Shown piece after piece: positions 15,801 to 40,653 of a stretch of 64,000 bases of DNA. The DNA lies in the NCBI RefSeq assembly GCF_004104055.1, contig NZ_QOVJ01000007.1, forward strand, positions 1-64,000, read 5' to 3'. This stretch comes from Leeuwenhoekiella aestuarii (GTDB lineage Bacteria; Bacteroidota; Bacteroidia; Flavobacteriales; Flavobacteriaceae). Both the position numbers and the translations under genes were made by a program. The stretch's first letter is position 1. The number at the start of each line of letters is the position of its first letter. The notes below the pieces were generated by a model. It ran no database searches, was not told the DNA's origin, and was given only the letters and a program-made list of their open reading frames with translations.

Positions 15801-15845
15801 TCCCCATAAACAGGGAGTAAATAAAGCCATAAGCTAGGTATCTTG
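15801..15845 (+). promoter_or_regulatory. Shared locus promoter, copy A (DUF4132 gene)
   Basis: TCCCCATAAACAGGG at 15801-15815 matches the locus consensus TCCCTGAAAACAGGG. A -7-like TATCTTG ends at 15845, so the span from motif start to the end of the -7 box is 45 bp. The motif begins 80 bp before the start codon. It lies 10 bp beyond the IS right end, so the insertion stopped just short of it. Confidence 0.6.
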
Positions 15846-15880
15846 CAGAAAATTAAACGCGATTCTAAAGATCATCGATT

Positions 15881-18800
15881 ATGATACCTACCGAACAAGC
15901 TCATAAATACATTTCCAGATTTAAAAAAGCTGATCTAAAAAAAGAAGATTTCCATCAATTTTCAGCACCGTATCAAAAACTGGGTTGGGTACTTACTCAA
16001 CTCAAAAAAGACCAATACAATTACTATACGGCTTCTGATTTAACAGCCAGTTTTGCGGCACCAGAAACGATGAATCCTTGGTCTAGCAAAGAAGGAATGC
16101 AATTGGGTGTGTTTTTGTTTGGAGAAATTCAAGCACCCTATTTAGGTATGATGTGGCAGCTTATCGACTCCCTTCCCTATCAGGAAGGTTATGCTAGAAA
16201 AGCATTTAGGTCGAAAGCCAGCTTCCAGCTGCTCACTAAAAAAATCAACATCTTTAGACGCTTTTTAAGCCTGAGCCGTTTAGGAATGGGCAGCTTACCA
16301 CTTCAAGAGCAATTGCAATACAGCACCTATTACGATCGCGGAAACAGCTACTTCTTTGCTTCTATCTTCACCCAAAAACCAGAACTGGTAGCTGAAGTGG
16401 TAGTTGATATCATTCAGGGCGAAGACGAGATAGGTGGTGTTAGTCACGATCTTATCAAGGGCCTATTGCTTACCCCAGCACAAAAAAACTGGGAACTGGT
16501 AGGCAACTTACTCCTTGCAGCGCAACGGCAAGAAGGCTTGCGACAAACTATTTTAGAAAGCTTAGATGAGACCCATTTAGGAGCGCTTAAATACATTATC
16601 AATCTTATTTTAGAAAATGACCTGGCCCGTTTTAGTAGTGTGGTAAGAGCTGTAAATGTATGGTTTGGTTTTAATTGGGAAGCACCTAAAAAAGCTACGG
16701 TGAATCGAATCCTACAGCTTGCCCAAAGCTTAATTCATAATAGCGATAAAGTTGACGAACTCCTTAACAGCAGAGATAATATAGAAGTGTATGTAGCACT
16801 TTGGGCTGTAGGGATTATAGATGTAGATTTGGCCAATCAAAAAGCTTTAAATCGGGTATATCAAACAGAAAATAGAGACACCAAACTAGCAGCGCTTTAT
16901 TTTGTATCGCAAACCGGCAGGACCAACACCTCTATTGTTGACTATTTTAAAAAAGAGCTGGGTAAAGATCCGGCTATCGATCATTGGGTGATTTTAAATT
17001 TACCCCAAATCGAATTGGATACCGACCTTTTTCAACGCGTATATGAAGTCGCTCAAGCTATTGAAAACGGAAAAGCACAAAAATCAGGAAAAATATTTTC
17101 GTGGTTTGACTTTCAGCCTACTTCAGAATCGTTTTTCAATTTTCTTATCAATCAGGCTAACCAAGAACAATTAGCCCTGCTCGCTGATGATATTGATCAA
17201 CTTCCCTCGGTATATAGAGAAAATTACATTCGTAAAGTGTTTCCCAACAGTCATCGCTATTATTGGGGCAAAAAAAGTGCACCACAACCGCAAGCCGATT
17301 ACGATTACGAACGCGGTTCCTGGAAACGAAACTTAGCGCATCAAGCCATTAAAAACCGAAATGAAACCGTAATGGCTACCGGTATTCAACTCTTTTATGT
17401 GATGCCGCTCTATGAAGAAGACCTACTGCTTGCTGAAGAATTACTAAGTCGTAAAAGTAAAACCTTACGTTCGGCTTTAATAGAATTGGTGGTCCATCAA
17501 CCTGAACCCATTTTACAGACCACTACCCTTCATTTAATAGAAGCTAAAAATGTAAATCAGCGTTTAGCGGGACTCGAAATTTTATCGATTTTAGATAACG
17601 AGGATCAATATCCCGAGTTTATCAACCAACAAATAGAACGCTACAAAGCCCGTCCCAAACACTCCAAAAATGAACAAGTCTTCCTGGACAAATTCACCAA
17701 GTCTGAACACGCAAATACCTTTAGTACTGGTTTTGGAGCTGTAGACTACAGCAATCTGAGTCCGCTGTATATACCCCAACCCAAATTTCAAACCAAGACC
17801 AACTTTTTCGATAAGCTGGGTATTGTAAGTTCCGCAGGAAAAAGCAATAAGTTAAGCGCTTTTATCAACCCTAAAAAAATTAGTGAAGCCGTAAATAATT
17901 TGATTAAACGCATCCATGAGCAGCGCAATTATGAATACGAGCGAGAAGGCTATCAGGGAGAAACCACTACCCAATTATTAGGACAGGGCATTCACGATAT
18001 TAAAGAATTAGAAGACCCTACCCCTTTAGAAGAATTGCATAACCTCCCCTTAGCCAAGCTTTGGATAGAATGGTATGAACATAGCCAACTAAACGATTAT
18101 GAAATGTATATGGCTATTCGTTTTATAGCCAATGCCAATAACCCGTACAGTTACTACAGCACGCTTATTCCGTTTGGCAAACAATACATTCCCAATCTCG
18201 AAGCATTAGCCATAGAGCATAATCCACGTTCGTATTATGGAAAAAATCAAGTGTACTTAAAAGTTCTAAAAAGGCTCTTCAAAGTTTACCAAGACCAGGC
18301 TAATTTCATCAATTTCAAATTAGATCTCTTAGAAGATATAATTGCTAATTTTCCCGAAAAGCATAAAAAAACAGGCTTTAAGCAAAATGACTATTCCATA
18401 CAATCTTCCAATTGGACGAGTATAGCTTCGCAATTTATAGGAGGCCTGGATGAAGATGAACTAGAGAATGCCAGCCTGGATCAACTAAAAAAGCTTTGGG
18501 ATTTGCACCTGTACTTAACCGCTCAATACCTGGGGCATCCTAACCCGGTTTCGCAACTTCAGGAAGTCGCAGCAGAAAAAGTTAAAAATGCCAGGGACAT
18601 GCCTGCTCCCAAGATCGAGGTAACCATTAAGTTGTATCAAAACAAGCTGATCAATGAGGATGATCTCTTGTTTCAGGCGCTATATTCCGGAGAATTGATG
18701 TCCATTATAGACGGTGGCTTCAATTACCGCATCCGCAGCGGTAGAATTCCTAAAAATCCAATTCCGCCACACGTATTTGCTCCCCTTAAAACCAATCTCC

Positions 18801-20875
18801 TGCAAATCGAATTGGAACGCGGTGATTTAGCCACAGAAGCTTCAGATTATATCGGGCATATACAAACAGTACCGGGCACCCATTACGTATTTGAAATTTT
18901 ACAACGCTTAGGCAAAGAATCTTTTGAACGCGGGTATAGCTATTATAACGACAGTAAAAAATCAAAATTCAGTGCCATACTTAGAAAAAGCATTCCCGGT
19001 GAATCAGAGAGTTATGCCGATTTTGTAGCGCTTGCTGACGAAGCCAAAATTCCCAAAAAACGCTTAATCGAACTGGCGTGCTATGCCACACAATGGGCAG
19101 GTTATGTAGGTGCATATCTGGGGTTAGAAAAGTTAGAAGATGCCGTTTGGTGGTTTCAGGCGCACGTTTCAGACTATATGAGCAGTGAAAAAGAAACCCT
19201 CATTTCCCGGTATTCCAACATTCCAAAATCAGATTTTGCCATCGGCGCTATTGATATCGATTGGTTCAATAAAGTCTATAAAAATCTAGGAAAATCAAAT
19301 TGGAAAATTTTACACGATGCGGCCAAATATATTTCTGATGGAAACGGTCACCGTCAGGTAAAATTATATTCCAGTGTGATGTTGGGCGAAGTAAAAATCA
19401 CCGAAACCCTTAAAAAAATCAAAGAAAAACGCGATAAAGATTACGTTCGGGCTCTGGGCTTAATTCCGCTTAGTAAAACCGTCCCCGAAAAAGATTTATT
19501 AAAGCGCTACAACCTCTTGCAGCAGTTTTTAAAAGAAAGCAAACAATTTGGAGCCCAGCGTCAAGAAAGTGAAAATCTAGCTGTGACAATTGCTTTAGAC
19601 AACCTATCCAGAAACGCAGGCTATCAAGACCGCGTACGTTTCAGTTGGGCGATGGAAGCCAAAGCAACCCAGGAAATTATGGAAAATGCTACCCTAACCC
19701 TTGATGAAACCCAATTAAAACTGGTCATTAACACCTTAGGTAAAGCAAGTATTCAGGTAACCAAAGCCGGAAAACCCTTAAAATCAATCCCAGTAAAGTA
19801 CCGCAAAGAAAAATCGGTTATTCAACTAAAAGAGCATAAAGCGTATTTAACGCAACAATACAAAAGAACGCGTTTGTCCTTAGAAAACGCGATGCTTAAT
19901 GAAGACCCGTTTACCGCTGCAGAAATACAGAAGCTTATGCTGCATCCTATTGTAAAAGCAATGCTTCACCAATTGGTCTTGTTTGCTCCAGAAAAAGAAA
20001 TCAGCGGTTTTTATAAAAACGGCACCTTAACCAACGTAGCCGGAAAAACACACCCGTTAGCCAAAGAAGAGGTCTTGGTTATTGCCCACCCTGCTCATCT
20101 TTTTCAAACTGTAGCATGGGATTTATACCAGAAACACCTTTTTGCCGAGCGCATCGTACAGCCTTTTAAACAAGTATTTAGGGAGTTGTATGTGATCACC
20201 CAAGAAGAACGGGAAACCGGATACCGATCTAAACGCTACGAAGGGCATCAAATACAGCCTAACAAAACCGCAGCTTTATTGCGCAGCCGGGGCTGGACGG
20301 TTAACCGAGACGAAGGCTTGCAAAAAGTCTATCATCAACGCGGATTTATGGCTACGATGTATGCTATGGCCGATTGGTTTTCTCCTTCAGATGTAGAAGC
20401 ACCTACACTAGAAGAAGTGTGTTTTCATACGTTAACCGACTATAAGCCCATTCCGCTTAGCGAAATCCCACCGGTAGTCTTTAGCGAAATTATGCGCGAT
20501 ATAGACTTAGTGGTGAGCGTCGCCCACGTAGGTGGTGTAGATCCTGAAGCCAGCCACAGTACGATGCAAATGCGTGCAGCACTGGCCCAAGAATCTGCGA
20601 GACTCTTTAAGCTTGACAATATTGAAGTTAAAAACCGCCATATTTTAATCCAGGGAAAACTCGGTGAATACAGCATTCACTTAGGCAGTGCACAGGTAAG
20701 TAAAAACGGATTGGCACTTTCTATCCTGCCCGTACACAGTCAGCATCGGGGCCGTCTATTTTTACCCTTTGTAGATGATGATCCTAAAACCGCCGAGCTT
20801 ATTTCTAAAATGAAACTCCTGGCCGAAGATCATAAAATACAAGACCCTACCATTTTGGCACAAATCAATAATTAA
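15881..20875 (+). CDS. Very large DUF4132-domain protein (1664 aa)
   Basis: This cytoplasmic protein has no signal peptide or membrane segment. The first 1350 residues are mostly helical and repeat-like. The C-terminal 250 residues carry the DUF4132 signature: RYEGHQIQPNKTAALLRSRGW, DIDLVVSVAHVGGVDP, and SARLFKLDN...QGKLGEYSIHLGSA...LPVHSQHRGRLFLPFVDDDPKTAE (quoted in pieces). The function of DUF4132 is unknown. E. coli YehI (MolR) belongs to the family and is encoded near AAA+ and vWA proteins. Here a vWA protein is encoded in the same locus about 23 kb away under the same type of promoter. I see no WGR domain. The gene is intact, with an ATG about 36 bp after the -7 box. Confidence 0.85.
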   Translation: MIPTEQAHKYISRFKKADLKKEDFHQFSAPYQKLGWVLTQLKKDQYNYYTASDLTASFAAPETMNPWSSKEGMQLGVFLFGEIQAPYLGMMWQLIDSLPYQEGYARKAFRSKASFQLLTKKINIFRRFLSLSRLGMGSLPLQEQLQYSTYYDRGNSYFFASIFTQKPELVAEVVVDIIQGEDEIGGVSHDLIKGLLLTPAQKNWELVGNLLLAAQRQEGLRQTILESLDETHLGALKYIINLILENDLARFSSVVRAVNVWFGFNWEAPKKATVNRILQLAQSLIHNSDKVDELLNSRDNIEVYVALWAVGIIDVDLANQKALNRVYQTENRDTKLAALYFVSQTGRTNTSIVDYFKKELGKDPAIDHWVILNLPQIELDTDLFQRVYEVAQAIENGKAQKSGKIFSWFDFQPTSESFFNFLINQANQEQLALLADDIDQLPSVYRENYIRKVFPNSHRYYWGKKSAPQPQADYDYERGSWKRNLAHQAIKNRNETVMATGIQLFYVMPLYEEDLLLAEELLSRKSKTLRSALIELVVHQPEPILQTTTLHLIEAKNVNQRLAGLEILSILDNEDQYPEFINQQIERYKARPKHSKNEQVFLDKFTKSEHANTFSTGFGAVDYSNLSPLYIPQPKFQTKTNFFDKLGIVSSAGKSNKLSAFINPKKISEAVNNLIKRIHEQRNYEYEREGYQGETTTQLLGQGIHDIKELEDPTPLEELHNLPLAKLWIEWYEHSQLNDYEMYMAIRFIANANNPYSYYSTLIPFGKQYIPNLEALAIEHNPRSYYGKNQVYLKVLKRLFKVYQDQANFINFKLDLLEDIIANFPEKHKKTGFKQNDYSIQSSNWTSIASQFIGGLDEDELENASLDQLKKLWDLHLYLTAQYLGHPNPVSQLQEVAAEKVKNARDMPAPKIEVTIKLYQNKLINEDDLLFQALYSGELMSIIDGGFNYRIRSGRIPKNPIPPHVFAPLKTNLLQIELERGDLATEASDYIGHIQTVPGTHYVFEILQRLGKESFERGYSYYNDSKKSKFSAILRKSIPGESESYADFVALADEAKIPKKRLIELACYATQWAGYVGAYLGLEKLEDAVWWFQAHVSDYMSSEKETLISRYSNIPKSDFAIGAIDIDWFNKVYKNLGKSNWKILHDAAKYISDGNGHRQVKLYSSVMLGEVKITETLKKIKEKRDKDYVRALGLIPLSKTVPEKDLLKRYNLLQQFLKESKQFGAQRQESENLAVTIALDNLSRNAGYQDRVRFSWAMEAKATQEIMENATLTLDETQLKLVINTLGKASIQVTKAGKPLKSIPVKYRKEKSVIQLKEHKAYLTQQYKRTRLSLENAMLNEDPFTAAEIQKLMLHPIVKAMLHQLVLFAPEKEISGFYKNGTLTNVAGKTHPLAKEEVLVIAHPAHLFQTVAWDLYQKHLFAERIVQPFKQVFRELYVITQEERETGYRSKRYEGHQIQPNKTAALLRSRGWTVNRDEGLQKVYHQRGFMATMYAMADWFSPSDVEAPTLEEVCFHTLTDYKPIPLSEIPPVVFSEIMRDIDLVVSVAHVGGVDPEASHSTMQMRAALAQESARLFKLDNIEVKNRHILIQGKLGEYSIHLGSAQVSKNGLALSILPVHSQHRGRLFLPFVDDDPKTAELISKMKLLAEDHKIQDPTILAQINN

Positions 20876-20886: not shown

Positions 20887-20973
20887 GGGCGTTCCCCACT
20901 CCCGTGGGGCGCGCTTTCTGTTACAAGTCCGCGTGCTCGCGCACTGTGGGCTTTTCACGACAATCGCTAACGC
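20887..20973 (+). repeat. REP-like palindromic element
   Basis: This G+C-rich block is unlike its surroundings. It is framed by GCGTT (20889-20893) and AACGC (20969-20973) and contains a perfect hairpin CCCCAC-tccc-GTGGGG (20894-20909) and a central hairpin GTGC-TCGC-GCAC (20933-20944). The layout GGGCGTT-hairpin-...-CGCTAACGC resembles intergenic REP-like repeats I associate with flavobacterial genomes (from memory). It sits between two genes and may stabilise or end the DUF4132 transcript. Confidence 0.6.
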
Positions 20974-20989
20974 AAAAGTCACGTTCACT

Positions 20990-21403
20990 ATGCAACTCAC
21001 GTTACATTTAAAAAGATTGGGGAAGAAAAAGGTAAAAAAGGTACCCTTCACCCTGGCAGAACCCCCACAAACCTTAGAAGACCTACTTATCGCTTGTGTA
21101 AAAAATCAAGTAGCAGCCTTTAATAACAAACGCTTAGCAGTAAATGTAATTGGCTTTTTAAGTCCGTCAGAAATTCAAGACCAGGCTACAAGCGGAAAAG
21201 TAGATTTTGGCGTCTTAGGCAATAAAAATTTAGCTAACGAGCAAGAAGCCATCGATAATGTACGCATTGCCTTTAAAGACGGTTTATTCCTGGTGTTTAT
21301 CGATGATGAAGAAGTTACCCAGCTGCAAGCACCGCTACAGCTTACTTCCCAAAGTGTTGTGACCTTTATACGAATGACCTTTTTGGTAGGTACCTATTGG
21401 TAA
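20990..21403 (+). CDS. Hypothetical protein downstream of the DUF4132 gene
   Basis: I chose the ATG at 20990 (137 aa) because upstream in-frame codons fall inside the REP-like element. The protein starts MQLTLHLKRLGKKKVKKVPF, a lysine-rich beta-strand-like start, and continues as a mixed alpha/beta protein with no signal peptide or membrane helix. I do not recognise the family. It begins 114 bp after the DUF4132 stop on the same strand and has no regulatory motif of its own, so it is probably read from the DUF4132 promoter. It may be a small partner of the DUF4132 protein. Confidence 0.65.
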   Translation: MQLTLHLKRLGKKKVKKVPFTLAEPPQTLEDLLIACVKNQVAAFNNKRLAVNVIGFLSPSEIQDQATSGKVDFGVLGNKNLANEQEAIDNVRIAFKDGLFLVFIDDEEVTQLQAPLQLTSQSVVTFIRMTFLVGTYW

Positions 21404-21937: not shown

Positions 21938-22720
21938 TTATTCTTTCGGGAGTTTAAAAAGCTGTTCCCGATTTATTGGGAAGTAGCGGGTTCCTTTAAA
22001 TCGAGGATTAGAAGGTATCATGGGTAGCGATGGATACATACGCGCTCGTGCAGCGCGTTTTAAACGCATTCCCCCATCAAAAAGTGAATGGATTTCATCT
22101 TCATCGTTGATGTAAATCGGTTTTTCAACCCAAGTTATTACCTGACCATAATTGGGTTGTACTAATAGCTGATTGTAAGGGGTATCCTGAAGCGAAAAGC
22201 TATAGCTATGCCCTTCTTGTTCACCAATAGCTATAGCTATCCACAAAGTATCACCTTTCTTTACCTGCAAAGAATAAACACTATCGCTTTCTGTTTTAAA
22301 CTTTTCAGAGGCAATAAAAGTAGAGGCATCAAAATCTTTACCCGTTTTTACGCATATGCGTTTAGGGTCAAGCTTTCTAAAGTAAATCAACAGCTGTTCA
22401 TCAGCAACAGCATCAGCATGGCTTCCGTAAAGCTTTATTGCATCCTGATCTGCAGTTGTGGTTGCATAAGCCGTATCGTTTTTCACCGTAAATGTTCCCT
22501 GAAAATAATTGACCGCGTCTGTTTCAGCAGCTGGCTTTTTAACTACAAATTGCTTTCTTTTAGCATTCATTCCTAAGATCACAGGAGCATCTGTATCAGC
22601 ACTCTTAAAGAAACCGTGGTATTTATCTAATTGGTTATCCTCTGTAGTTTGCGCATGAGTAAAGCCACTGTAGCAAATTAGAGAAATGAGTATGGTACGT
22701 TTAAGCTGTTTAACTAGCAT
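21938..22720 (-). CDS. Exported protein of unknown function
   Basis: This 260-aa protein has a signal peptide (about 1-23, cleavage near THAQ). The mature part is predicted beta-rich and ends in a basic segment (MRLKRAARARMYPSLPMIP). I do not recognise the family. It is probably periplasmic or outer-membrane associated. It has its own promoter of the locus type at 22757-22802 and is convergent with the DUF4132 group. Its exported location, together with the WG-repeat lipoprotein encoded upstream, gives the locus an envelope arm. Confidence 0.75.
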   Translation of the reverse strand: MLVKQLKRTILISLICYSGFTHAQTTEDNQLDKYHGFFKSADTDAPVILGMNAKRKQFVVKKPAAETDAVNYFQGTFTVKNDTAYATTTADQDAIKLYGSHADAVADEQLLIYFRKLDPKRICVKTGKDFDASTFIASEKFKTESDSVYSLQVKKGDTLWIAIAIGEQEGHSYSFSLQDTPYNQLLVQPNYGQVITWVEKPIYINDEDEIHSLFDGGMRLKRAARARMYPSLPMIPSNPRFKGTRYFPINREQLFKLPKE

Positions 22721-22756: not shown

Positions 22757-22802
22757 CAAAGAACTCAATTTTTGGCCTAAAAAACCACCCTGTTTTCAGT
22801 GA
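22757..22802 (-). promoter_or_regulatory. Shared locus promoter, copy B (exported protein gene)
   Basis: On the minus strand TCACTGAAAACAGGG (22802-22788) is followed by a -7-like GTTCTTTG (22764-22757), a span of 46 bp. The start codon lies 82 bp from the motif start. After the motif the sequence also shares GGGTG and AGTTCTTT with copy C in front of the WG-repeat gene. Confidence 0.65.
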
Positions 22803-22894
22803 TTTTAGGTCTTTTAAGGTGAAAATCTTTAGAAACGGCAAGCTTCTTTGTGGGTATAGAACATTCAAAACAAGCAGCGTTTTAAGCAGTATTT

Positions 22895-25285
22895 CTATTG
22901 AAACAATATCAAATCCTGGGCTTTTATAGGTACTTTGGTTCCGTCTTCCCTCATAAACTGCCAGACGCCTTCGCGTTCAAAAGGTACCGGAAACTTAAAG
23001 CTCATTTCTTGGGTACGACTATTGAAACGGTCGTAAATCCCAATGACATACAAGGGCTTTAATAGCTCTCTTCCATCAGCAGTAATAACGCCGTAGCGGT
23101 TATTCTTGATGGTTAAAAAGCCATTTCCGCTTTCTTCAGGATACACCTTATCAAAATGAGGAGGAACTAGAATTTTTCCTTCAAGAGATGCAAACCCCTC
23201 TAGCATTTTTCCGGTAGCTTTATCTTCTTTTAACAACAGGAGATAGCGCTCAAATTCAAGAATTGGGTAAAACAGGGTTGCTTTGGTATCGTAAATTACC
23301 GGAACCATAAGTTCTCCTGCTGCATTGGCATACCCAAATTTCAATTGATCGGTGCTGTCTTTTTGAAATAGGATAAAATTTCCATTTTTCAATTGTTGAA
23401 TTTCCGAATATCCCTCGTTAAGCAAAAGCTGTTTTCGCTTATAATCATAAAGATACATTTTCCCGTTTTTTTGAACGCTCAATAAAGAAGTGCTGTCATT
23501 TAAAAGCACGTTTGTAAACGGAAGTTTTTCTTTTTTATGAGCTTTTACCGAATAGCTGTAATACAAGCTGTCTCTCTCGTGCAGTAAAAACGTAGCGGCA
23601 TCCAATGCTTCGATTTCCGCATAATGTACCGGAAGTATTTCTTTACCTTCCTCATGCATAAGACCTGCCTGGGTTTGATAATTCCCTACTTCTTTTACCA
23701 CTTTTATAAGCTGGGGTTGCGCTTCAAAAACCTGAATAGATTTATAGTTTATCGGTAGGATTAACGTATCTTCTTTTAAATCATAAAGGCCTTGATCACC
23801 ATAATCCTCTTTACTTACAAGCATTTTTTGATGTGGCAGAAATTTAAGATCAACATAATTATCAGCAATCATAGTATGGGTATTTAGATTGTAAAGTTTA
23901 GTCTTTCCGTCTTTCTCTAAGCTGATTAACCCTTTACTTTCTGCTCTGGAAACATAAGGCGTACGCTGCCCATTGCTTAAAAAATAGATCTTATCATAGG
24001 TTGGGCGAATACGTTTACCAGTTTTTGGAATGTAAAACCCATATTTTTCATTGGCGGTTAGTTTAAAAATAGATTCCGTTTTATTCTCGGCAGTTTTCAT
24101 TTCAGTCATGATAATCTCATCATAACCAGGAGGCAATACTTCTGTATTCTCCCGATCAAGCACGCCAACTTTTCGGTTTTTTCTACTGATAAAATAATCA
24201 CCTTGCACGCGTAATTGGCTTTTATAACTTGGCGGAATTATAGCCTTGCCCAACGTATCTATAATTCCAAATTTTTCATCTTTTTTAATCGAAAAATAAG
24301 GCCCCGATTGAAAGCTTGAATACGAATTATAAATTCCTGAATATTCAAAAGGAATGACTTCTTCTCCCTTGCGGTTAATCACCCCATAATAACGGTGATC
24401 ATCTATGGTTTTTGCGGCGATTAAATGTCCGTTTTCAATCTGAAAGCTATCATACTCAGGGGCGGCAAATTCTTTTTGCTGCGGAATATTTATAATAACG
24501 TTTTTCCCTTCTTTTCTAAATGCGGCAACCCACTCATCATTTCGCATATTTGAATGGATGTGTTGATAGTTAAAAGGTACCAACACTTCATTCTTGAGAT
24601 TGATAACGCCCCATTTTCCATTTTTTTCAGCATAAAAATAATCGGGCTTTTTGCCACAACCGCTGCAGTAATCAAAATCATCGTATTCAAAAGGGATGAT
24701 CACCTTGTTGTGTTCAGCATCATAAACACCCCATTTTTCATCCTTTTTTACATTAAAATAGCGGGGACCTAGTATTTGAACACGATCAAATTCAAAGGGA
24801 ACTATTAGGTTGCCCCAGGTATCGGCATAGGTTGTTTTTCCTTCTTTTTCCAGTTTTAAATAACGATCATACAGCAATGCGATGGTATCATACTCCGGTT
24901 GCAATACCCATTCAGCTGAATCATTCAGCATGCCATAGTTTCCGTTATCAAGCTGTACAATGCGCATGAGTTTTTTCTCATTCTTATATACGCTTAGCAT
25001 TCCGTTATTCGTAGGAGAAACGCTGTCTATTGGCTGAAATTCGTGTATCAAATTTTTAAACACGCGTTTTCCATTGGTGTTGATAAAAAAGGTGCTGCTG
25101 TCTTTTTCTACCCGTGCTATGCCTTGAAAAAAACGAGAGCTTTTATCGAAGCTTACCGTATCAATAGGCGTTTTAGCAGCACTCATCGATTGACGGGGTA
25201 CGCTTTTGGCACTATCACACGCATTTAAAAACAATAGGGCAGCAAGTCCTAAAATGGAGTAATTAAGATTGGGGATGATTTTCAT
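22895..25285 (-). CDS. WG-repeat lipoprotein (about 796 aa)
   Basis: I chose the ATG at 25285 because it gives a lipoprotein leader (MKIIPNLNYS...FLNAC) with a lipobox cysteine at 22; the longer frame to 25342 adds an implausible basic extension. The protein is made of WG-type repeats, for example KDEKWGVYDAEHNKVIIPFEY and KNGKWGVINLKNEVLVPFNY (given as repeat units), and KDEKFGIIDTLGKAIIPPSY. These occur roughly every 45-60 residues and are predicted to form a beta-solenoid or propeller. One repeat holds a CSGC pair that may bind metal. WG-repeat proteins are often exported and of unknown role. It has its own locus-type promoter, so I place it in the regulon as a surface or periplasmic component. 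Confidence 0.85.
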   Translation of the reverse strand: MKIIPNLNYSILGLAALLFLNACDSAKSVPRQSMSAAKTPIDTVSFDKSSRFFQGIARVEKDSSTFFINTNGKRVFKNLIHEFQPIDSVSPTNNGMLSVYKNEKKLMRIVQLDNGNYGMLNDSAEWVLQPEYDTIALLYDRYLKLEKEGKTTYADTWGNLIVPFEFDRVQILGPRYFNVKKDEKWGVYDAEHNKVIIPFEYDDFDYCSGCGKKPDYFYAEKNGKWGVINLKNEVLVPFNYQHIHSNMRNDEWVAAFRKEGKNVIINIPQQKEFAAPEYDSFQIENGHLIAAKTIDDHRYYGVINRKGEEVIPFEYSGIYNSYSSFQSGPYFSIKKDEKFGIIDTLGKAIIPPSYKSQLRVQGDYFISRKNRKVGVLDRENTEVLPPGYDEIIMTEMKTAENKTESIFKLTANEKYGFYIPKTGKRIRPTYDKIYFLSNGQRTPYVSRAESKGLISLEKDGKTKLYNLNTHTMIADNYVDLKFLPHQKMLVSKEDYGDQGLYDLKEDTLILPINYKSIQVFEAQPQLIKVVKEVGNYQTQAGLMHEEGKEILPVHYAEIEALDAATFLLHERDSLYYSYSVKAHKKEKLPFTNVLLNDSTSLLSVQKNGKMYLYDYKRKQLLLNEGYSEIQQLKNGNFILFQKDSTDQLKFGYANAAGELMVPVIYDTKATLFYPILEFERYLLLLKEDKATGKMLEGFASLEGKILVPPHFDKVYPEESGNGFLTIKNNRYGVITADGRELLKPLYVIGIYDRFNSRTQEMSFKFPVPFEREGVWQFMREDGTKVPIKAQDLILFQ

Positions 25286-25441
25286 TTGTTTATTCTTTTT
25301 CTTTCTAGCATGGGTACTACAATTCGTACACAAAACAAGCAATCAAGCGTTTAGCATCATCGCGATGGTACCTTGTTGCTTTTGGTCGATTTTAATAGTT
25401 ACGGCCAACACAGTGTTTTTTTTTCAAGTGCAACTCGAGCC

Positions 25442-25487
25442 CAAAAGAACTGATTTTCTAAAACTAAATGCACCCGGTTTTCAGGGT
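25442..25487 (-). promoter_or_regulatory. Shared locus promoter, copy C (WG-repeat lipoprotein gene)
   Basis: On the minus strand ACCCTGAAAACCGGG begins at 25487 and a -7-like TTCTTTTG ends at 25442, a span of 46 bp, identical to copies B and H. The distance to the ATG at 25285 is about 200 bp, longer than for the other copies, which implies a leader of roughly 150 nt. Confidence 0.65.
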
Positions 25488-25543
25488 TTGTGAATTTTTT
25501 AAGAAGCGCGTGTATTCAAAAATCCCCAAGCGTGAATCTTAAA

Positions 25544-25591
25544 TTTCACGGAATACAGGTATAAAATCCTGCTCATTAACCTCCAAATTTG
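25544..25591 (+). promoter_or_regulatory. Shared locus promoter, copy D (gene at 25613)
   Basis: TTTCACGGAATACAGG at 25544-25559 is the most divergent copy. It keeps the GAA core and the CAGG end, but its left half is CACGG instead of CCCTG. A -7 box CAAATTTG (25584-25591) lies 24 bp after it, giving a total span of 48 bp. The start codon is 69 bp from the motif start. Its CACGGAA half matches the perfect palindrome at 27544-27559. Confidence 0.5.
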
Positions 25592-26319: not shown

Positions 26320-26724
26320 ATGATGTCACCTAATACCGTTATAGACCGTATCGAACTTCTTTTAAACAAAGATGAACATACCCAACATCAATACCTCTTG
26401 CAGCAATTTGATTATAGCATTTCTGCTGCTTACCCTATAGCTGATGAATCTGAAAAACGAATAGATGTGCACGCCTCGGGCTGCAATCGGGAAGAACCAG
26501 ACGAACTGTTTTTAGAATGGATCGCCAACCACCCCGGTACATGGTCTGGTGTGGTACACATTTTCTTTAAAAATGAAAAAGCTCCCGGTTTAAGCATTCA
26601 TTTTAAACAGTCTATTCTAAATAGCTATAGCCAATCGTTTACCGAAAATAGTGGCTATCAACAAAACGGCTATTTTGCCGCACAGCTAAAAGAGGTTACC
26701 ATCAATCAATTACAGATGAACTAG
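26320..26724 (+). CDS. Hypothetical cytoplasmic protein
   Basis: This 134-aa protein starts at a double ATG. It is a mixed alpha/beta sequence with an aromatic centre (HPGTWSGVVHIFF) and no signal peptide. I do not recognise the family. It lies 14 bp after the previous gene and is therefore co-transcribed. Size and position would suit a partner of the 230-aa protein, but nothing in the sequence proves it. Confidence 0.7.
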   Translation: MMSPNTVIDRIELLLNKDEHTQHQYLLQQFDYSISAAYPIADESEKRIDVHASGCNREEPDELFLEWIANHPGTWSGVVHIFFKNEKAPGLSIHFKQSILNSYSQSFTENSGYQQNGYFAAQLKEVTINQLQMN

Positions 26725-27559: not shown

Positions 27560-27565
27560 TGGTGT

Positions 27566-29447: not shown

Positions 29448-31412
29448 TTAATTTAGAGGTATATCAAGGGTTATAGACGTTCCGCTTCCCGAGCCGCTGT
29501 CTATATCTAAACTTCCGTTTACTTTTTGTAAGCGCTCGCGGATGTTGCGGAGTCCAATTCCTTGTTTTTTGGTTTTCTGAAAGCCTTTCCCGTTATCGTT
29601 AATCACAATATTAAGATGGTCTTCGTGTTTGGTGAGCTGTACTTCTGCCTGGGTAGCTTCGGCGTGTTTCAGGATATTGTTGATCAATTCCTGTACAATA
29701 CGATACGCATCGGCCAGTAGCGCATCGGGCAATTCATCAATTTCTTCTTCCGGAAATAAAAAAGTTTGGATAGTCAATTCGGTTTTTTGAGTGATCTGTT
29801 CAATAAAATCATTGAGAAAACTACTAAAGCCTATTTTTGAAAACGGCAACGGATGCAGTTGATGCGACAGTCCGCGTACATCCATACAGGCATTGCTAAT
29901 CGCTTCTAATAAACGTTTTGCCTTGGGTTGTTCTGCAGCTCCTTCTAAATAATGCTCCAAGGCGATTTTTATACCGGCCAGATCGCTACCTATACCGTCG
30001 TGGATCTCACGTGCCAACCGGGCACGTTCTTCCTCCTGCCCTTCCTGGTACCGCTCTATCACAGATAGCTTATGATCTTTGATCATTTGGTTGATGCGCT
30101 GTCTCGCATTTTCTTCCTGCTGTGAGTTCAACTCTTTTTGAACTCGCAGCCGCTGGATGTAAAAGAGGCGCAACAGGATCAAGGTAATCAAGACCAAAAC
30201 AAAACCGGCAATAAATGCATTACGTACAATACGCTGGCGTTTTAACTTCAGTGCGGTCTTTTGTAATTCGGCCTCGCTAAGCTTCTGCTCATTTTCCAGA
30301 AGTTTAATGCGGGTTTCTTTTAACTGCGTTTCGTAGCGTTCCTGCAGTTTGGCCACGTACTTTTCCTTATCCAGTGAGTTTTGTGTTGTGGTAAGTTGTA
30401 CCCCTTTGTCGTAATTCTCAAGGGCTTGTTTATAAGCACCCTGATCCTGATACAGCTGGGACAGGTTTTTATAAATTTCAGCATTATACTGAAGTAATGA
30501 TTGCGCTTCCCCGATTTTTAATGCCTGCTCAAAATAATCAATGGCTTCCTGCGTGTTGCCCAGTTTGCTTTCAGAAAGTCCCAAGTCGTTCAATACGATA
30601 GCGGTATCTGACTGAAATTGAAGTTCTTTTAAAAGCCGCAGTGTTTTTTTTAAGGAAACCACCGCTTCGGCATAGCGTTTTTCTTCCACAAGCATCTGCG
30701 AAAGGTTCATATGAACATAGGCTATAACCGCTTTATTTCCCTCCTGCTCCCGGTAATTTAATACCGTCTGGTAATGCTTTCTGGCTTCTTCAAATTTCCC
30801 TTTTTCTTTTAAAATATTGGCAAAATTGAACAAAGTGGTAAGCACCCCATCATCGTCCTTTAATTCCCGATACAAATGAGCTGCCCGGTCTAAACTTTCT
30901 GAAGCTTTTATATAATCGTTTTGCAATACGTAAAGGGTAGCTATATTTTGGTATGCGTTGGCTTCCTGTTGCTCATCGTTTTGAGCTTCAGCATAGCTTA
31001 AGCATTTGACAAAGCCATCCATGGCCTTAGGGTAGTCACCCAGGTTTTTATACCCCAAAGCCAGCAGGTTGTAACACGCTGCGAGTCCATTTTCTACCTT
31101 ATTCTTCGTTAAGAGCTTAATAGTTTGCTGTGCGTGAAATACCGTGCTCTTGTAATCTCCCGTGATGTTTCCCAGGTTCCCCAATGCATAATGTGCCCGT
31201 GCCTCTTGAAGGCTTAACTGCTTGGCCTGAGCAAGCTTAAGCCATTGGGTAGCGGCTTTTTGGGCCCGCTCGGGTTGGGTATTTAAATGTTCCCGATAAA
31301 GAGTAGCCAGGGAATCTATTTTAGGAGTAGGGACTTCTTGCCCTAAAATTCCCTGAGTGAGTACCAGACAACCAAGCACAAGGACAAACCGGTATGTTAG
31401 AATTTTTAGCAT
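29448..31412 (-). CDS. TPR-containing sensor histidine kinase (HisKA_3)
   Basis: This 654-aa protein has a signal sequence (about 1-24), a sensor region of about seven tetratricopeptide repeats (roughly 60-360), a coiled-coil, one membrane helix (FIAGFVLVLITLILLRLFY), a HisKA_3 dimerisation domain with the phosphoacceptor H471 (ARLAREIHDGIGSD), and a HATPase_c domain with N-box (ELINNILKHA) and G-box (NDNGKGF, GIGLRNIRER). The TPR sensor faces the periplasm. The kinase partners with the NarL-type regulator encoded next. It is in one operon with a TPR protein, a DUF1266 protein and an 853-aa protein, so sensor and presumed effectors are made together. Confidence 0.94.
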   Translation of the reverse strand: MLKILTYRFVLVLGCLVLTQGILGQEVPTPKIDSLATLYREHLNTQPERAQKAATQWLKLAQAKQLSLQEARAHYALGNLGNITGDYKSTVFHAQQTIKLLTKNKVENGLAACYNLLALGYKNLGDYPKAMDGFVKCLSYAEAQNDEQQEANAYQNIATLYVLQNDYIKASESLDRAAHLYRELKDDDGVLTTLFNFANILKEKGKFEEARKHYQTVLNYREQEGNKAVIAYVHMNLSQMLVEEKRYAEAVVSLKKTLRLLKELQFQSDTAIVLNDLGLSESKLGNTQEAIDYFEQALKIGEAQSLLQYNAEIYKNLSQLYQDQGAYKQALENYDKGVQLTTTQNSLDKEKYVAKLQERYETQLKETRIKLLENEQKLSEAELQKTALKLKRQRIVRNAFIAGFVLVLITLILLRLFYIQRLRVQKELNSQQEENARQRINQMIKDHKLSVIERYQEGQEEERARLAREIHDGIGSDLAGIKIALEHYLEGAAEQPKAKRLLEAISNACMDVRGLSHQLHPLPFSKIGFSSFLNDFIEQITQKTELTIQTFLFPEEEIDELPDALLADAYRIVQELINNILKHAEATQAEVQLTKHEDHLNIVINDNGKGFQKTKKQGIGLRNIRERLQKVNGSLDIDSGSGSGTSITLDIPLN

Positions 31413-34334: not shown

Positions 34335-36896
34335 TTATGCGTTTAAATCGGTCACTACGTGTTGTAAAGCCTGGGTGAGTTTTTCGGGATATGCGCCAGA
34401 GGCCGCCATCATTTCCAGCCCTTGTGTATAGCTTAACGCCATAGAAGAACCTTTGACCAGCGTCACAAAAAGGCTTCTACCCAGATTTCCATAAGCTTCA
34501 TAAGTACTACCGGGAGCGGCTTCCAGGTCGATAATCAATAGGTACAATACCTGATGCATGTTCATTTTAAGTGCGGTATCTTCTTCTAACAAGGCTTTTA
34601 GTTCAGCCTCATTTTTCGCTAGAAATGTCTGGTAAACACTGCTCGCTATTCCGGAGTTTTGGTAGTTGGAAAGCCCTATAATCACCTGCTCTAAAATCTC
34701 TTTACTCAGTGGCGCTTCAGAATCGAATGCTATAGCTGCTGGTTCTATTGCCGCTTCTTCTTCTTCGCCGTCATCATCAATTCGTTCTTCTTCTATTGCT
34801 GCGTCCTCCTCCTCACTTAGTGTTTTGGTGGTTTTTTCTTTTTGAAAATAATAGGCGTAGAACGGAAGAATCTCATTTTCTAATTGCATTTGATGGAAGG
34901 CATTAATCTCTGGACCGTTGATGTAGTCGTATAAAATTGTCACTACATTTTTAGATAACTTCTCGGGTTTTAAGTCGTGTAGCACATGACTGATATGCGT
35001 CGCGATGGCTGAACCTATGCTGCCCAATTCAGAATAAGAATCAGAACCTTTACTGCACATTTTTAAAAATTTATACAGTCTATACAGTATCTCATCAGGA
35101 AAACTTCCCTTCTCTTCTGCATTAAAATAAGCTGCTAAACGCGCTCCCTGAGATTTCAATACCGCATCTACCCATAAAAACTCTTTCCCCAGGCTGTAGT
35201 AATACTCATTTAAAAACAAATACCAATTTTGGATGATTTGTGGCGTCAAGTCGGTTTTTTCATTTACGTAGTGAAATTTTGCAAAATCCTCGCATTGGGC
35301 TACAACGCTGCTTTGAAGATTCTTTAATGATGCAATCTCATTCACTTGGGCAAAGGTTTGGGTATGCCTGTAAACTGTCGTTAAAATTTCAACACAAAGC
35401 TGTACTCCGGTTTCTCGTAAATAGGGTTTTGTTTCTCTTGCAGAATAAGCTATGCTTATTAGATAATCGTATAAAACAGCGTTACGTTCTTCACTGATCT
35501 GTTCTTTTAAATTGCTGCGGAAATCGTAAAGACAAAGCAGTAAAAACTGATTTAATGGATCTGCCAAGCCTGAAGCTTGATAGGCAGGCAACCCATCTTT
35601 AAGGGAAGTAAGCTCACCCAACACATGAGTAAGCACATACATCCCGGTGACTTGAAACGCATTCCCGTCTTTGCTCATTACGGGCAATTTTTTGGCTTGC
35701 CAGTCTGTAAGCAAATGCGAAAACACCTCATTGAAATAGGCTTTTTGTCGCAAATTCTTTTGAGCAGCATTACACATCTCAAACCAGAGTGAAATTGACT
35801 TTACCGGCAATTCACGGGCACTATTTACTGCGAAAACGGCTTTCCCGTAATTATCAAAAGCCTCCCGGTTAAAATTGGTTCCCTTATTGGCCAATAACCA
35901 ATCTTGCAGTTTGTAAAAGCCCGCTTCTGTTTGTGCTAAAGGAATGTTTTTATCTTTTAAACTGAACAGCAACACGTCACTCTCGTCCCATTCTTTCTCG
36001 GCAAATGCAGTAATCAAGGGGTATTTCCCCGCTGCGGTGTGAAGATTCAGGTACTCAAGACTTTCATCTTCTGTAAAAAGTACGCGCTCTACCAAGCGTT
36101 GATGGGCGTGTATGGCCCAATCCTCATTTGCTGCATAAAACGACGCCAACTCTTCGCTTAACCAAGGTTTTAAAACTTCGAAAGCTCCCGGTTTACCTGG
36201 TATACTTACCGGTAAAACCTGATGCATACTTTCCAGGAGCAACTCCCAACTGCCTTTATAAAAATGTTCAACAAAAATGGCGTTTAATCTAAATGGGAAT
36301 TCCTGTAAAACCTCGTTCTCGTCTTTGGCAAAATAGGTTTCGGCTAATAATTTGAAGCTTAAACACTGCTGCACCAAAAAATGCGACGTCTGGTAATCGC
36401 GAAGATCAAAAGCGCGATGGAGTAAAAAACGCGCTACCAGTAAGGAAGCTTCAGATTGACTATGAATCAATACCGACAAGACTTCAAAAACCTGTGCTTG
36501 CCTTTCTTCTGAGATTTTTTCTGACTGTAAAAATGCTAATCCAAAATAAAGAAATTCAAGGAGTTTTTCGGTATGCTGTTCATCCGGAAAAAATCCGTTT
36601 TTCAGTAAAGGAAGCCAAGAAGCTACCCAATCAAATCCCTGAGCTTCATCGGCATAAATTTCAGGATGCTGATAAATCTGTTGGGATAAAGCTGCTGAAA
36701 AGTCAGGAGTCACAGCTTGATTTCCCAGATTTTCTTTTAGTTCTAAATAAGAAGGGGAATCTTCAGCATTCATCAATTGCAGCACCTGCAGCAAAGCTTG
36801 CTGCTCGGCAGTTTCTAAATCTGAAAGATCCAGCTTGGGTAAAAGTCGATCGTTAAAGAGTGCTGAAGCACTCGCGTTATTCAAATTATCATCCAC
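34335..36896 (-). CDS. Large cytoplasmic protein of unknown function (853 aa)
   Basis: This all-helical protein has no leader, no membrane helix and no motif I recognise. A strongly acidic stretch (roughly residues 690-720, with EEERIDDDGEEEEAAIEP) separates two helical parts and looks like a flexible linker. It heads the operon that continues with DUF1266, TPR, kinase and response regulator. A weak, partial copy of the locus motif (ending ACAGG, near 36952-36967) lies about 70 bp upstream but lacks a clear TTTG box. Confidence 0.75.
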   Translation of the reverse strand: MDDNLNNASASALFNDRLLPKLDLSDLETAEQQALLQVLQLMNAEDSPSYLELKENLGNQAVTPDFSAALSQQIYQHPEIYADEAQGFDWVASWLPLLKNGFFPDEQHTEKLLEFLYFGLAFLQSEKISEERQAQVFEVLSVLIHSQSEASLLVARFLLHRAFDLRDYQTSHFLVQQCLSFKLLAETYFAKDENEVLQEFPFRLNAIFVEHFYKGSWELLLESMHQVLPVSIPGKPGAFEVLKPWLSEELASFYAANEDWAIHAHQRLVERVLFTEDESLEYLNLHTAAGKYPLITAFAEKEWDESDVLLFSLKDKNIPLAQTEAGFYKLQDWLLANKGTNFNREAFDNYGKAVFAVNSARELPVKSISLWFEMCNAAQKNLRQKAYFNEVFSHLLTDWQAKKLPVMSKDGNAFQVTGMYVLTHVLGELTSLKDGLPAYQASGLADPLNQFLLLCLYDFRSNLKEQISEERNAVLYDYLISIAYSARETKPYLRETGVQLCVEILTTVYRHTQTFAQVNEIASLKNLQSSVVAQCEDFAKFHYVNEKTDLTPQIIQNWYLFLNEYYYSLGKEFLWVDAVLKSQGARLAAYFNAEEKGSFPDEILYRLYKFLKMCSKGSDSYSELGSIGSAIATHISHVLHDLKPEKLSKNVVTILYDYINGPEINAFHQMQLENEILPFYAYYFQKEKTTKTLSEEEDAAIEEERIDDDGEEEEAAIEPAAIAFDSEAPLSKEILEQVIIGLSNYQNSGIASSVYQTFLAKNEAELKALLEEDTALKMNMHQVLYLLIIDLEAAPGSTYEAYGNLGRSLFVTLVKGSSMALSYTQGLEMMAASGAYPEKLTQALQHVVTDLNA

Positions 36897-38050: not shown

Positions 38051-38094
38051 CGAAGGTATTGGAGAATGGCTTGCCATGTATCCCTGAAAAGGGT
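38051..38094 (-). promoter_or_regulatory. Shared locus promoter, copy F (SUKH protein gene)
   Basis: The dyad CCCTGAAAAGGG (38082-38093, plus strand), read from 38094 on the minus strand, is followed by a -7-like TACCTTCG (38058-38051), a span of 44 bp. The motif starts 67 bp before the ATG. It is one base pair short in the centre compared with the consensus. Confidence 0.6.
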
Positions 38095-38136
38095 GATTTT
38101 GGAAATTAGGAAGTACCAAAAGCGTTTGAAGAAATA

Positions 38137-39264
38137 CTACTTGAGTATTTTTATATGTTCCAGACGAGGTCCAAAACTGCCGTAGACTTTGGTAAACGAA
38201 ATGGAAAGTTGCTCCAGTAATTGTTCTACAGAAAAATCTGGCAACTGATCTAAACAGGTGACGACTAAATTTTTGGTGAGGGATAGGTCTTGCTGATGAA
38301 TGGCATCGCAACTCAATGCATAATTGAGCAAGTCAGGATCTAAAGCGCGCGTTCTAAACTCCCCCTGAAACTCATTGGTTACATTGGCTTCATGAGCGTT
38401 ATTTATTAAGGTTACGGGAGTTTTACTGCTCATCGGGCCATTGCCGTGACGGGTTTGGTAACAACGGGTCACGTAATACATAGTGATCTGTGCATCGCTC
38501 AGTTCAGTTAAAATAAGCTCAATAGCGTTTTTAGAAGTGGTTGCACTCCATGTGGTATGCGGATGAAAACCGTGTTGGGTATCTAGCAAAATACCCTGAC
38601 TGCCTTCAAAAATAAAATGTTGATAGGTGTCTGCTAGCTGCGCTAATTGTGAGATCTCGTAAAAAGACTTGATGTTAAGGCAGCTTTCTATAAAATACGC
38701 TTCGTCATAGTGCTGCAATTCGTCTGTATAATACTCTTGAACGGCTTGAGGTTGCTGCGCTATTTTGCTTTGGTAAAAGTTCTGAATACTCTGTAAACGC
38801 TGCTGAATTACCCAGGGAAATTGTAAATCGTTCGCATAGAAATAAACCTCATCCCGATCCCGGGCTATAGTCGCCCCAAAACCTAAACCGCAAGAGCCAT
38901 GACCTTGCTGTTTTTCTACAGCACGATTATAGGCAATATCATAGATGGTGGTGATCTTAGCCAATGGATGCACATACAACTTGGGCTGGTAGGCTTTTAG
39001 GTAATTCCCTTCTTGCAAAATGGCCGGTGGAAAAAGCGTCGTATGCGCGCTATAATAAGTAGGAACACCCTGCACGGTTCCTGATCCAAAATTACTAAAG
39101 GTATGTTCAAGCTCCCTGGTAGTTACGGTATGCCCCACCTGATGTCCTCCTGAAAAGCGAACCACCAAACTTTCTTCAGGTTGTTGTGATGCCAGAAAAT
39201 GGGTGGTCGCCCCTTTTCCGGCATCGCCAAAACCTAAATCTATAACTATGCTGCACTTTGGCAT
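38137..39264 (-). CDS. Divergent adenylosuccinate-synthetase (PurA) homologue
   Basis: This 375-aa protein keeps the PurA fold landmarks. The phosphate loop is GFGDAGKG (11-18) with D14 and K17 at the positions of the catalytic aspartate and lysine. The IMP-site motif GGHQVGHT (39-46) keeps both histidines, and FEGSQG (219-224) and LLDTQHGFHPH (226-236) are present, as is an FRTRALDPDLL segment where PurA has its substrate-binding arginines. PurA is normally about 430 aa and reads GDEGKGK, so the glutamate-to-alanine change and the shortening are notable. Phage PurZ differs by losing the aspartate, which is kept here. A housekeeping purA is expected elsewhere. It is fused by zero spacing to the vWA gene. 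Confidence 0.88.
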   Translation of the reverse strand: MPKCSIVIDLGFGDAGKGATTHFLASQQPEESLVVRFSGGHQVGHTVTTRELEHTFSNFGSGTVQGVPTYYSAHTTLFPPAILQEGNYLKAYQPKLYVHPLAKITTIYDIAYNRAVEKQQGHGSCGLGFGATIARDRDEVYFYANDLQFPWVIQQRLQSIQNFYQSKIAQQPQAVQEYYTDELQHYDEAYFIESCLNIKSFYEISQLAQLADTYQHFIFEGSQGILLDTQHGFHPHTTWSATTSKNAIELILTELSDAQITMYYVTRCYQTRHGNGPMSSKTPVTLINNAHEANVTNEFQGEFRTRALDPDLLNYALSCDAIHQQDLSLTKNLVVTCLDQLPDFSVEQLLEQLSISFTKVYGSFGPRLEHIKILK

Positions 39265-40131
39265 TTATAGCATATTTTCTACGTCAATACCTGAATGCGA
39301 CGAACTGGTGTTTCCTGAAGATGTTGTAGTAGGCAAATGATTTTGAATCACCACTTCAGCAATACGCTTGGCTACGCGTTTATAATAGGATAATTCGATA
39401 AAGTTTTCCCCCAGCAATTCTTTCCAGTTTCCTTTTCGCATATCCTTTTTAGACCATTCGTTATGTTCTAAATGAATGTGATAGACGTTGTATTTTTCTT
39501 GTGCTTCTTTAATAATCGCTTCCGTACTAATACTTGCAGCTTCATTGGTACAGGTGTATTTACGAATAATTTCTCCCGGAAGCTCTTTAAATACAGGCTC
39601 GTCTCCTATCGTAAATAAAAAGCCTTTTTGTTTTCTTTTTTCCCAACAATCTATTGTGGTATGTCGGGCAGCAAAGAGATGTGCCAGGTTATAGCCTTCC
39701 TGATTGTTACCGCCACCGCCGCCTTCTAAGTATACGCGGGTTAACCAGCGGTCTAACAATTCTGCCGAAGATTCAAATTGACCTACTTGCAACGGGGCAC
39801 TATCGTACACAAAATCGCCAAGCCCCATAAACAGTACTTGGGGATGTTCTATACCGGCTTCCATAAGTGAACCGATAAGATCTGGCAGAGCTTCTTTTAC
39901 TATGAGCTCAGGCACAAAGCCCATACTGCCAGTCACATCTAAACCTACGATAATAGAAAGGGACTCCGGATGCTCTTCAGAATCTCTAGATTCGCGTACA
40001 AGTGCTTTTGCTGGATCCATTTCGGGATCGATGTTTCTTGCGGTAAATATCTCTTCGCGAGATTTGTTTTGATATCCTTTAGATCTTCTTAACTGTTCGT
40101 AAGCTTCGTTACTAAATCTTCCTCCTCCCAT
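39265..40131 (-). CDS. von Willebrand factor A (vWA) domain protein
   Basis: This 288-aa cytoplasmic protein has a vWA domain (about 58-260). The metal-ion site is DVTGS (D65, T67, S69), a DxTxS form of the usual DxSxS, with later elements LEGGGGGNNQEG (135-146) and TIGDEP (174-179) that would complete it. The N-terminal 50 residues are charged and the C-terminal tail is serine-rich. vWA proteins in bacterial conflict loci usually act with AAA+ MoxR ATPases, but none is encoded here. The stop overlaps or abuts the PurA-like start and the gene begins 2 bp after the coiled-coil gene, so the three products are likely to work as a set. Confidence 0.9.
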   Translation of the reverse strand: MGGGRFSNEAYEQLRRSKGYQNKSREEIFTARNIDPEMDPAKALVRESRDSEEHPESLSIIVGLDVTGSMGFVPELIVKEALPDLIGSLMEAGIEHPQVLFMGLGDFVYDSAPLQVGQFESSAELLDRWLTRVYLEGGGGGNNQEGYNLAHLFAARHTTIDCWEKRKQKGFLFTIGDEPVFKELPGEIIRKYTCTNEAASISTEAIIKEAQEKYNVYHIHLEHNEWSKKDMRKGNWKELLGENFIELSYYKRVAKRIAEVVIQNHLPTTTSSGNTSSSHSGIDVENML

Positions 40132-40133
40132 AA

Positions 40134-40484
40134 TTATAGTTTTTCTATTTTACCACCAAATAAATACGCGTAGCGCTTCTTGGCAAGTTCTAATTTGATT
40201 TCTAAGTTTCTTATTTTGACCGCCATTTCTAAGTCTTTAGCGACATAATTCTTAGCATCAAAATCTGAAGCTAATACCAGACTATTGGCATCTGTAGGAC
40301 TCATATCCAGCATATTTTCTTGTTCGCGCTTTAAACGTTTTAAAGACAGGGCCAAATCTTCGGTTTCCCGTTTGTACATCAACTGCGCATCTTCTGCAAT
40401 AGCATGAGCACGGTCGTCTCGTATTTTATCGTTGTTACGCTTTAATGAGTCTAAAAAAGCGGCTTGGTGTTTATGATCTTCCAT
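40134..40484 (-). CDS. Small coiled-coil protein
   Basis: This 116-aa protein is almost wholly helical and highly charged, with heptad-like regions (about 35-60 and 83-108: AVKIRNLEIKLELAKKRYAY) separated by a short break. It has no leader. It is the first gene of the coiled-coil/vWA/PurA-like operon and has the best-formed locus promoter directly upstream. A structural or adaptor role is likely; I do not recognise a family. Confidence 0.78.
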   Translation of the reverse strand: MEDHKHQAAFLDSLKRNNDKIRDDRAHAIAEDAQLMYKRETEDLALSLKRLKREQENMLDMSPTDANSLVLASDFDAKNYVAKDLEMAVKIRNLEIKLELAKKRYAYLFGGKIEKL

Positions 40485-40499: not shown

Positions 40500-40546
40500 C
40501 AAAGTTAACTATTCAATTTGCGTATTATTATCCCTGAATTCGGGGA
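40500..40546 (-). promoter_or_regulatory. Shared locus promoter, copy G (coiled-coil/vWA/PurA-like operon)
   Basis: On the minus strand TCCCCGAATTCAGGG begins at 40546, and a perfect -7 box TAACTTTG occupies 40507-40500, a span of 47 bp. The start codon lies 62 bp from the motif start. The dyad is nearly perfect (CCCCGAATTCAGGG, one mismatch of symmetry) and this copy best shows the twofold symmetry. It is divergent from copy H, 60 bp away. Confidence 0.72.
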
Positions 40547-40607
40547 ATTTTCAGTTAAGGGTTGATTTTTGGTTTTCCTTGAATACAACTTCTCCTAAAA
40601 TTCAATA

Positions 40608-40653
40608 TCCCTGAAAACGGTTAGCTTATTCCCTTAAAATGTGTGCAATTTTG
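40608..40653 (+). promoter_or_regulatory. Shared locus promoter, copy H (SUKH/DUF pair)
   Basis: TCCCTGAAAACGG at 40608-40620 is followed by a -7 box CAATTTTG (40646-40653), a span of 46 bp. The start codon is 76 bp from the motif start. Together with copy G it forms a divergent control region with two separate dyads. Confidence 0.68.

Follow-up and report, generated by a model that had tools for sequence, protein, structure and literature searches.

The window, i.e. the stretch of 64,000 nucleotides of Leeuwenhoekiella aestuarii DNA analysed here, contains an accessory region between positions 15800 and 42051 where open reading frames and family scans point to 20 genes, apparently arranged in nine transcription units. 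According to the family scans, the gene at 15881-20875 encodes a giant protein with DUF5724, DUF4132 and DUF7737, and SUKH proteins, DUF1266, a TPR protein and a WG-repeat protein are represented among the other genes. The genes at 38137-40484 form a portable three-gene core, encoding a small coiled-coil protein (40134-40484), a vWA-like protein (39265-40131; read from the sequence by eye and without a family match) and an adenylosuccinate-synthetase-like protein (38137-39264). An NCBIfam scan of 10 proteins returned just adenylosuccinate synthetase families, with scores far under the cut-offs.

The product of 26320-26724 is predicted to adopt the fold of Hcp, the type VI tube protein (predicted structure, pLDDT 78), with 6bdc, the F. 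johnsoniae Hcp1, as the closest structure. The type VI sheath protein TssC (PF05943) was found in none of eight genomes and PF17541 in two of the eight, the window's own genome not among them; in these scans the Hcp-fold protein is thus without a detectable sheath partner in its own genome. The gene at 27067-27462, referred to as x131, is 72-85% conserved across eight aligned sequences, and comparison of its predicted fold (pLDDT 85) with the PDB gave no match at E ≤ 0.001. A protective role, or one in conflict, is suggested by the genes present, but a defence-system library gave zero matches with the 10 of the 20 locus proteins scanned. We recognised no paper on this cluster in the open-access collection searched by DUF names, cluster families and regulation, the regulation queries returning nothing; term searches within PMC7159879 and PMC3482391 gave nothing on the cluster, the latter yielding 'poly-immunity' alone.

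Two of the genes encode a TPR histidine kinase and a NarL/LuxR-type response regulator (Table 1). Receiver and GerE domains cover the regulator over its whole length, as in its best solved relatives VraR (E 2e-28), NarL and RcsB, from which the system differs in its gene set. The phospho-acceptor D56 and most of the helix-turn-helix are invariant in nine aligned sequences, and the regulator is the sole protein among the 20 with a DNA-binding Pfam match. The N terminus of the kinase looks secreted, as judged by eye, so that a periplasmic signal is our guess.

Reading the regions upstream of orthologous genes and then refining a matrix, we identified the site shared by the transcription units as an 18-bp dyad, ATCMCKGAAWWCMGKGAT, followed by a -7 box resembling TAnnTTTG.

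Table 1. Promoter elements of the accessory region and the two proposed signalling genes (window positions)
Feature	Positions	Strand	Dyad	-7 box	Genes and remarks
Promoter A	15800-15846	+	15800-15817	TATCTTGC 15839-15846	
Promoter B	22757-22803	-	22786-22803	GTTCTTTG 22757-22764	21938-22720
Promoter C	25442-25488	-	25471-25488	TTCTTTTG 25442-25449	22895-25342 (WG-repeat)
Promoter D	25545-25591	+	25545-25562	CAAATTTG 25584-25591	25613-26305, 26320-26724 (Hcp-fold)
Promoter E (corrected)	27543-27589	+	palindrome 27543-27560	TAGATTAG 27582-27589	27722-28711
x131 tandem promoter	27488-27560	-	palindrome 27543-27560; degenerate dyad 27517-27534	TACATTTG 27488-27495	27067-27462
Promoter F	38051-38097	-	38080-38097	TACCTTCG 38051-38058	apparent operon 38027-28804, kinase and response regulator last
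Promoter G	40500-40547	-	40530-40547	TAACTTTG 40500-40507	span 48; 40134-40484, 39265-40131, 38137-39264
Promoter H	40607-40653	+	40607-40624	CAATTTTG 40646-40653	40684-41127 (SUKH), 41146-42051 (DUF6892/DUF7738)
NarL/LuxR-type response regulator	28804-29442	-			Response_reg and GerE; proposed activator
TPR histidine kinase	29448-31412	-			HisKA_3, HATPase_c; proposed partner

Counting the window and those orthologues whose upstream sequence was obtained, the site is present at promoter A in 5/5, C in 2/2, D in 8/8, F in 7/7, G in 7/7 and H in 5/5 cases. Promoter A, which drives 15881-20875 and probably the two small downstream genes as well, has its site also in G003, G112, G268, G247, G026 and G356. 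The distance from the start of the dyad to the end of the box (the span) is 47 bp at promoter D in all eight genomes, at promoter H in all five and, as best or tied-best value, at promoter F in all seven, while for promoter G the seven genomes divide into three with span 48 and four with span 47; promoter C is kept in G112 with an equal span. Promoter B was seen in the window only, no site being present in the 180 bp upstream of its one homologue found (G112). Genes predicted to be operon-internal (38137-39264, 41146-42051, 34335-36896, 28804-29442 and 20933-21403) have no upstream site in the window or in the orthologues, with one exception: the orthologue of 41146-42051 in G026 has a site, and it heads its own unit.

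A sequence-only reading of the same DNA had listed eight copies of the motif, seven of which (A, B, C, D, F, G and H) lie where it put them; the eighth, E, had been misplaced, since the element at 27566 is a half-match and the conserved palindrome lies 23 bp upstream of it. Its observation that six of the eight motifs begin 62-82 bp ahead of the start codon agrees with our distances of 81 (A), 83 (B), 68 (D), 70 (F), 63 (G) and 77 bp (H). Two weaker copies proposed at 21420 and 36952 were matched neither by the refined pattern (≤ 3 mismatches) nor by the promoter profile R1 described below (E ≤ 10, filters off).

The palindrome at 27543-27560 lies between x131 and gene E; the tandem pair of sites in front of x131 was absent from the earlier reading. 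In the window, and likewise in each of the seven retrieved loci that have x131 and E as divergent neighbours, the palindrome is the element that is conserved. Upstream of gene E it was found in eight of nine genomes, the exception being Mesonia, which has the palindrome upstream of x131; upstream of x131 it was found in nine of nine, and in all nine the distance from palindrome start to box end is 73 bp. This places the palindrome centre at approximately -68.5 relative to x131, and 26 bp further on lies a degenerate dyad with span 47 and its centre at approximately -42.5. Among 46 offsets tested, that of 26 bp gave the best mean score (-6.9 as against -13.5 for the next); the absolute scores being negative, it is position and conservation that speak for the degenerate site. 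The leader of gene E between palindrome and start codon (27590-27721) is approximately 110 bp longer than in the orthologues.

To describe the geometry, the span to the best TAnnTTTG-like -7 box was determined in 43 promoters belonging to eight classes and eight genomes. It is 47 bp in 38 of the 43 (ties counted), 48 bp in three, 46 bp in one and 41 bp in one, and the promoter with span 41 has TACCTTGC at 47, matching its orthologues. Averaged by promoter class, which keeps orthologues from counting twice, the box score is highest at 47 (4.65 of 6; next 2.62), and the observed strength was not reached at any common span in 100,000 class-wise rotations. The near-constant spacing reported in the sequence-only reading thus holds, and its individual values of 43-48 bp are replaced by 47 bp (48 for G) once dyad and box are measured in one frame. 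Within classes the identity is 83% for the dyad, 75% for the box and 38% for the spacer, compared with 34% for the stretch 60-20 bp upstream, 50% for the nearest 20 bp upstream and 46% downstream, where it should be noted that the dyads, and not the box, had been picked by score.

In the mapped Flavobacterium psychrophilum promoters described in PMC9723704 the box occupies -12 to -5, and with the box placed accordingly the dyad would extend from -51 to -34 with its centre at approximately -42.5. This equals the lux box centre of -42.5 given in PMC3376562. With the box in that position, the fixed distance to the core promoter and a centre near -42.5 fit the position of a class II activator (-41 to -43), and the activator suggested from the spacing in the earlier reading is in line with this predicted geometry. 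Column 17 of the dyad is A in 35 of 35 orthologous promoters, which leaves no TTTG at -36 to -33. Since the -33 motif of F. johnsoniae is reported as not identifiable (PMC7366714), activator dependence does not follow from a missing TTTG at -33.

The dyad could also be read as an operator at which the regulator represses transcription by blocking RNA polymerase. Such a reading would suit its place just 5' of the -7 box, within the region covered by the polymerase, and repression is possible for proteins of the NarL family. Repression, however, needs no base-pair-exact span in unrelated promoters, and the boxes of A, E and F depart from TAnnTTTG in conserved ways, which would be expected if an activator is needed; x131, moreover, has its tandem sites 26 bp apart, one of them at span 47. 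We therefore regard an operator as improbable and activation as the better reading of the geometry.

Fixed spacing would also be produced by a two-part promoter, recognised by an alternative sigma factor with no activator, in which the dyad forms the upstream part. In this context, the promoter A box (15839-15846) is TAnnTTGC in five of five genomes and resembles the SM5 promoter class of F. psychrophilum, described in PMC9723704, so that either a different sigma factor or a variant box may operate at promoter A. Most of the other boxes, however, are near the TAnnTTTG type of the primary sigma factor, the element is palindromic and one copy (E/x131) works in both directions, and the conserved locus is without a sigma factor; a sigma-like gene at 14350-14904, outside the locus, has a match in one of eight fetched loci (29%). 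It is thus very hard to see the dyad as a sigma-factor element, and we return to an activator site.

To assess specificity, we used 35 orthologous promoters, none of them from the window, to build profile R1. In the 4.4-Mb genome from which the window derives it gave 14 matches at E ≤ 10, eight of which, including the six best, lie in the locus (D, G on both strands, H, the x131 palindrome, E, F and A, with D as the top match). The best of the six matches elsewhere (E 0.13) is within an integrase-like ORF. Promoters B and C are absent from the genome matches at E ≤ 10 and score 7.8 and 5.5 bits, respectively, in the window. A genome scan had been proposed in the sequence-only reading, and the arrangement is indeed found at the locus and not before many unrelated genes; as a general genome-wide motif it can be ruled out at the level of the profile.

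The dyad as an exact 16-mer occurs at one place in the genome (27544-27559), and with one mismatch at two places outside the locus, each within an ORF; with up to two mismatches there are 93 strand matches genome-wide as against 38 for the reversed control, palindromes being counted twice. In the window the 16-bp pattern with up to three mismatches, which was derived from the window and orthologous sites and hence is not an independent guess, has 25 matches compared with 11.8 ± 3.8, and 0 of 100 shuffles reached 25. A chance origin of the motif is ruled out by these shuffles together with the class-wise rotations.

Close orthologues of the regulator (E ≤ 1e-60) were found in two of 13 genomes of the genus and five of 299 of the family, the own genome included in both. 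In a collection of named genomes, three of the best 80 loci listed encode a regulator with 80-89% identity (Flavobacterium frigidarium, Winogradskyella wichelsiae and Mesonia hippocampi, among the matches listed) and the remainder range between 30 and 42%. A tenth carrier, G356, with a regulator that is 78% identical, was found through a search with the vWA-like gene, which is present in 10 of 397 family genomes. Gene order is kept in G003, G112, G268, G247 and G026, as well as in those portions of the Flavobacterium and Winogradskyella loci that were retrieved. Identity is 78-92% for the regulator and 85-94% for the coiled-coil protein (40134-40484) but falls to 25-50% in several of the targets.

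Each of the ten genomes found to have the NarL-type regulator also has the site, which is kept before orthologous genes in the regulator-carrying loci; the check named in the sequence-only reading, whether the motif travels with the regulator, thus has a positive outcome. In seven other carrier genomes R1 gave matches at E ≤ 0.2 in 7/7, 4 to 16 apiece and mostly in the locus. Sites outside the locus (E < 0.1) precede a second Hcp-like gene in G112, and an ankyrin protein and two others in G356; one in G268 (E 0.058) has no network gene adjacent and may be due to chance. In Mesonia the member genes are dispersed, with sites on two other contigs before homologues of SUKH346 (54%) and of 25613-26305, named D1 (36%). 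In G356 the kinase and regulator genes are located 32 kb from the vWA gene, with sites before the kinase and other units. Of 27 sites that were picked from R1 matches and had not been used in building R1, span 47 gives the best box, alone or in a tie, in 23, an agreement that is partly built in because the profile contains the box.

Four genomes (G139, G331, G328 and G031) carry the core triad, 42-60% identical, with no regulator relative above 45% identity, and in the 142 kb retrieved from these four loci R1 found 0 sites at E ≤ 1. In the two of them for which ORFs were listed (G139 and G031), the triad neighbours look by eye like genes of NAD/ADP-ribose metabolism. In 11 genomes of the genus lacking the regulator the best R1 match has E 0.028, and two of them, G001 and G008, have nine and seven weak matches, respectively, at E ≤ 1. 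Among the matches listed, the loci of 77 distant regulator relatives (30-42% identity) hold no other gene of the cluster except kinases, a kinase match being present in 64 of them; one match to the sigma-like neighbour gene was also seen, and in the 1.30 Mb of these loci R1 gave a single weak match, at E 0.19. The system shares with other Bacteroidota TPR-kinase pairs a HisKA_3 kinase with TPR repeats adjoining a LuxR-type regulator, and differs from them in that the 77 distant loci are without the other genes of this cluster.

The question is then which protein binds the dyad. In the recognition helix of the regulator, each residue of the core TVETHRKNI is common to 75-77 of 77 distant relatives, these relatives having in part been selected by the same peptide, and because this core is generic among Bacteroidota NarL-type regulators it cannot alone explain a private site; for this reason the regulator is a likely rather than a proven binder. 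Nor does co-occurrence single it out, since several other genes of the locus travel with the motif. Other class II activators bind just as typically at a position of -42.5, and a different one, e.g. a CRP/FNR-type or other network protein, might bind the dyad while the response regulator controls something else. On the other hand, none of the other proteins among the 20 has a DNA-binding family match, a general regulator should leave good sites across the genome and R1 finds none such, and the regulator has remained 78-92% conserved while several of the targets drifted to 25-50%. We consider a different activator unlikely. The NarL/LuxR regulator, named in the earlier reading as the obvious candidate, retains that position in our comparisons as the only DNA-binding match, as one of the most conserved proteins and as one that is found with the motif even in a genome where the core lies elsewhere.

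Before the kinase/regulator unit itself a site is present in seven of seven genomes as promoter F, and in G356 directly before the kinase. A class II site of this regulator, autoregulated, is the best explanation given the near-restriction of the sites to the gene set, the fixed spacing to the -7 box, promoter F and the co-occurrence in ten genomes. As judged from these sequence comparisons, it is very probable that 15800-42051 constitutes one autoregulated two-component regulon with the NarL-type regulator as class II activator at the dyad. We infer that the TPR kinase would phosphorylate the regulator, a dimer of which would bind ATCMCKGAAWWCMGKGAT centred at approximately -42.5 and contact RNA polymerase that sits, with the primary sigma factor, at a -7 box resembling TAnnTTTG. 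The palindrome at 27543-27560 would serve gene E from approximately -42.5 and x131 from approximately -68.5, in the latter case together with the degenerate site at -42.5. Positive feedback is proposed because the kinase and regulator genes end an operon, itself predicted, that has its own copy of the site (F).

The LuxR-type class II promoters presented in PMC3376562 likewise combine an 18-20 bp dyad with a GerE-type regulator and an equal centre relative to the start site. In contrast to these, the regulator here is a NarL-type response regulator with a receiver and no autoinducer domain, and the promoters have a Bacteroidota -7 box and belong to nine units. The arrangement offers a precise operator and geometry for class II activation on the Bacteroidota promoter type, and ties twenty genes, most of them without assigned function, together with dispersed relatives elsewhere into one response, whose members can therefore be recognised by their promoter.

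As to its role, we tentatively raise the possibility of an undescribed inducible network of flavobacteria in which a single kinase facing the envelope would act with a single NarL-type regulator to turn on a set of genes of patchy inheritance, possibly for self-protection against attack by competitors. This set would comprise DUF4132, an Hcp-fold protein lacking a secretion system of its own, SUKH, WG, LRR, ankyrin, DUF1963 and DUF6892 proteins and the vWA/adenylosuccinate-synthetase-like core, and members would stay in the network through the same -42.5 site wherever they have moved in the chromosome.

A minor observation concerns G356, where three tandem genes at L167:8977-10665 look like paralogues and each has its own copy of the site.
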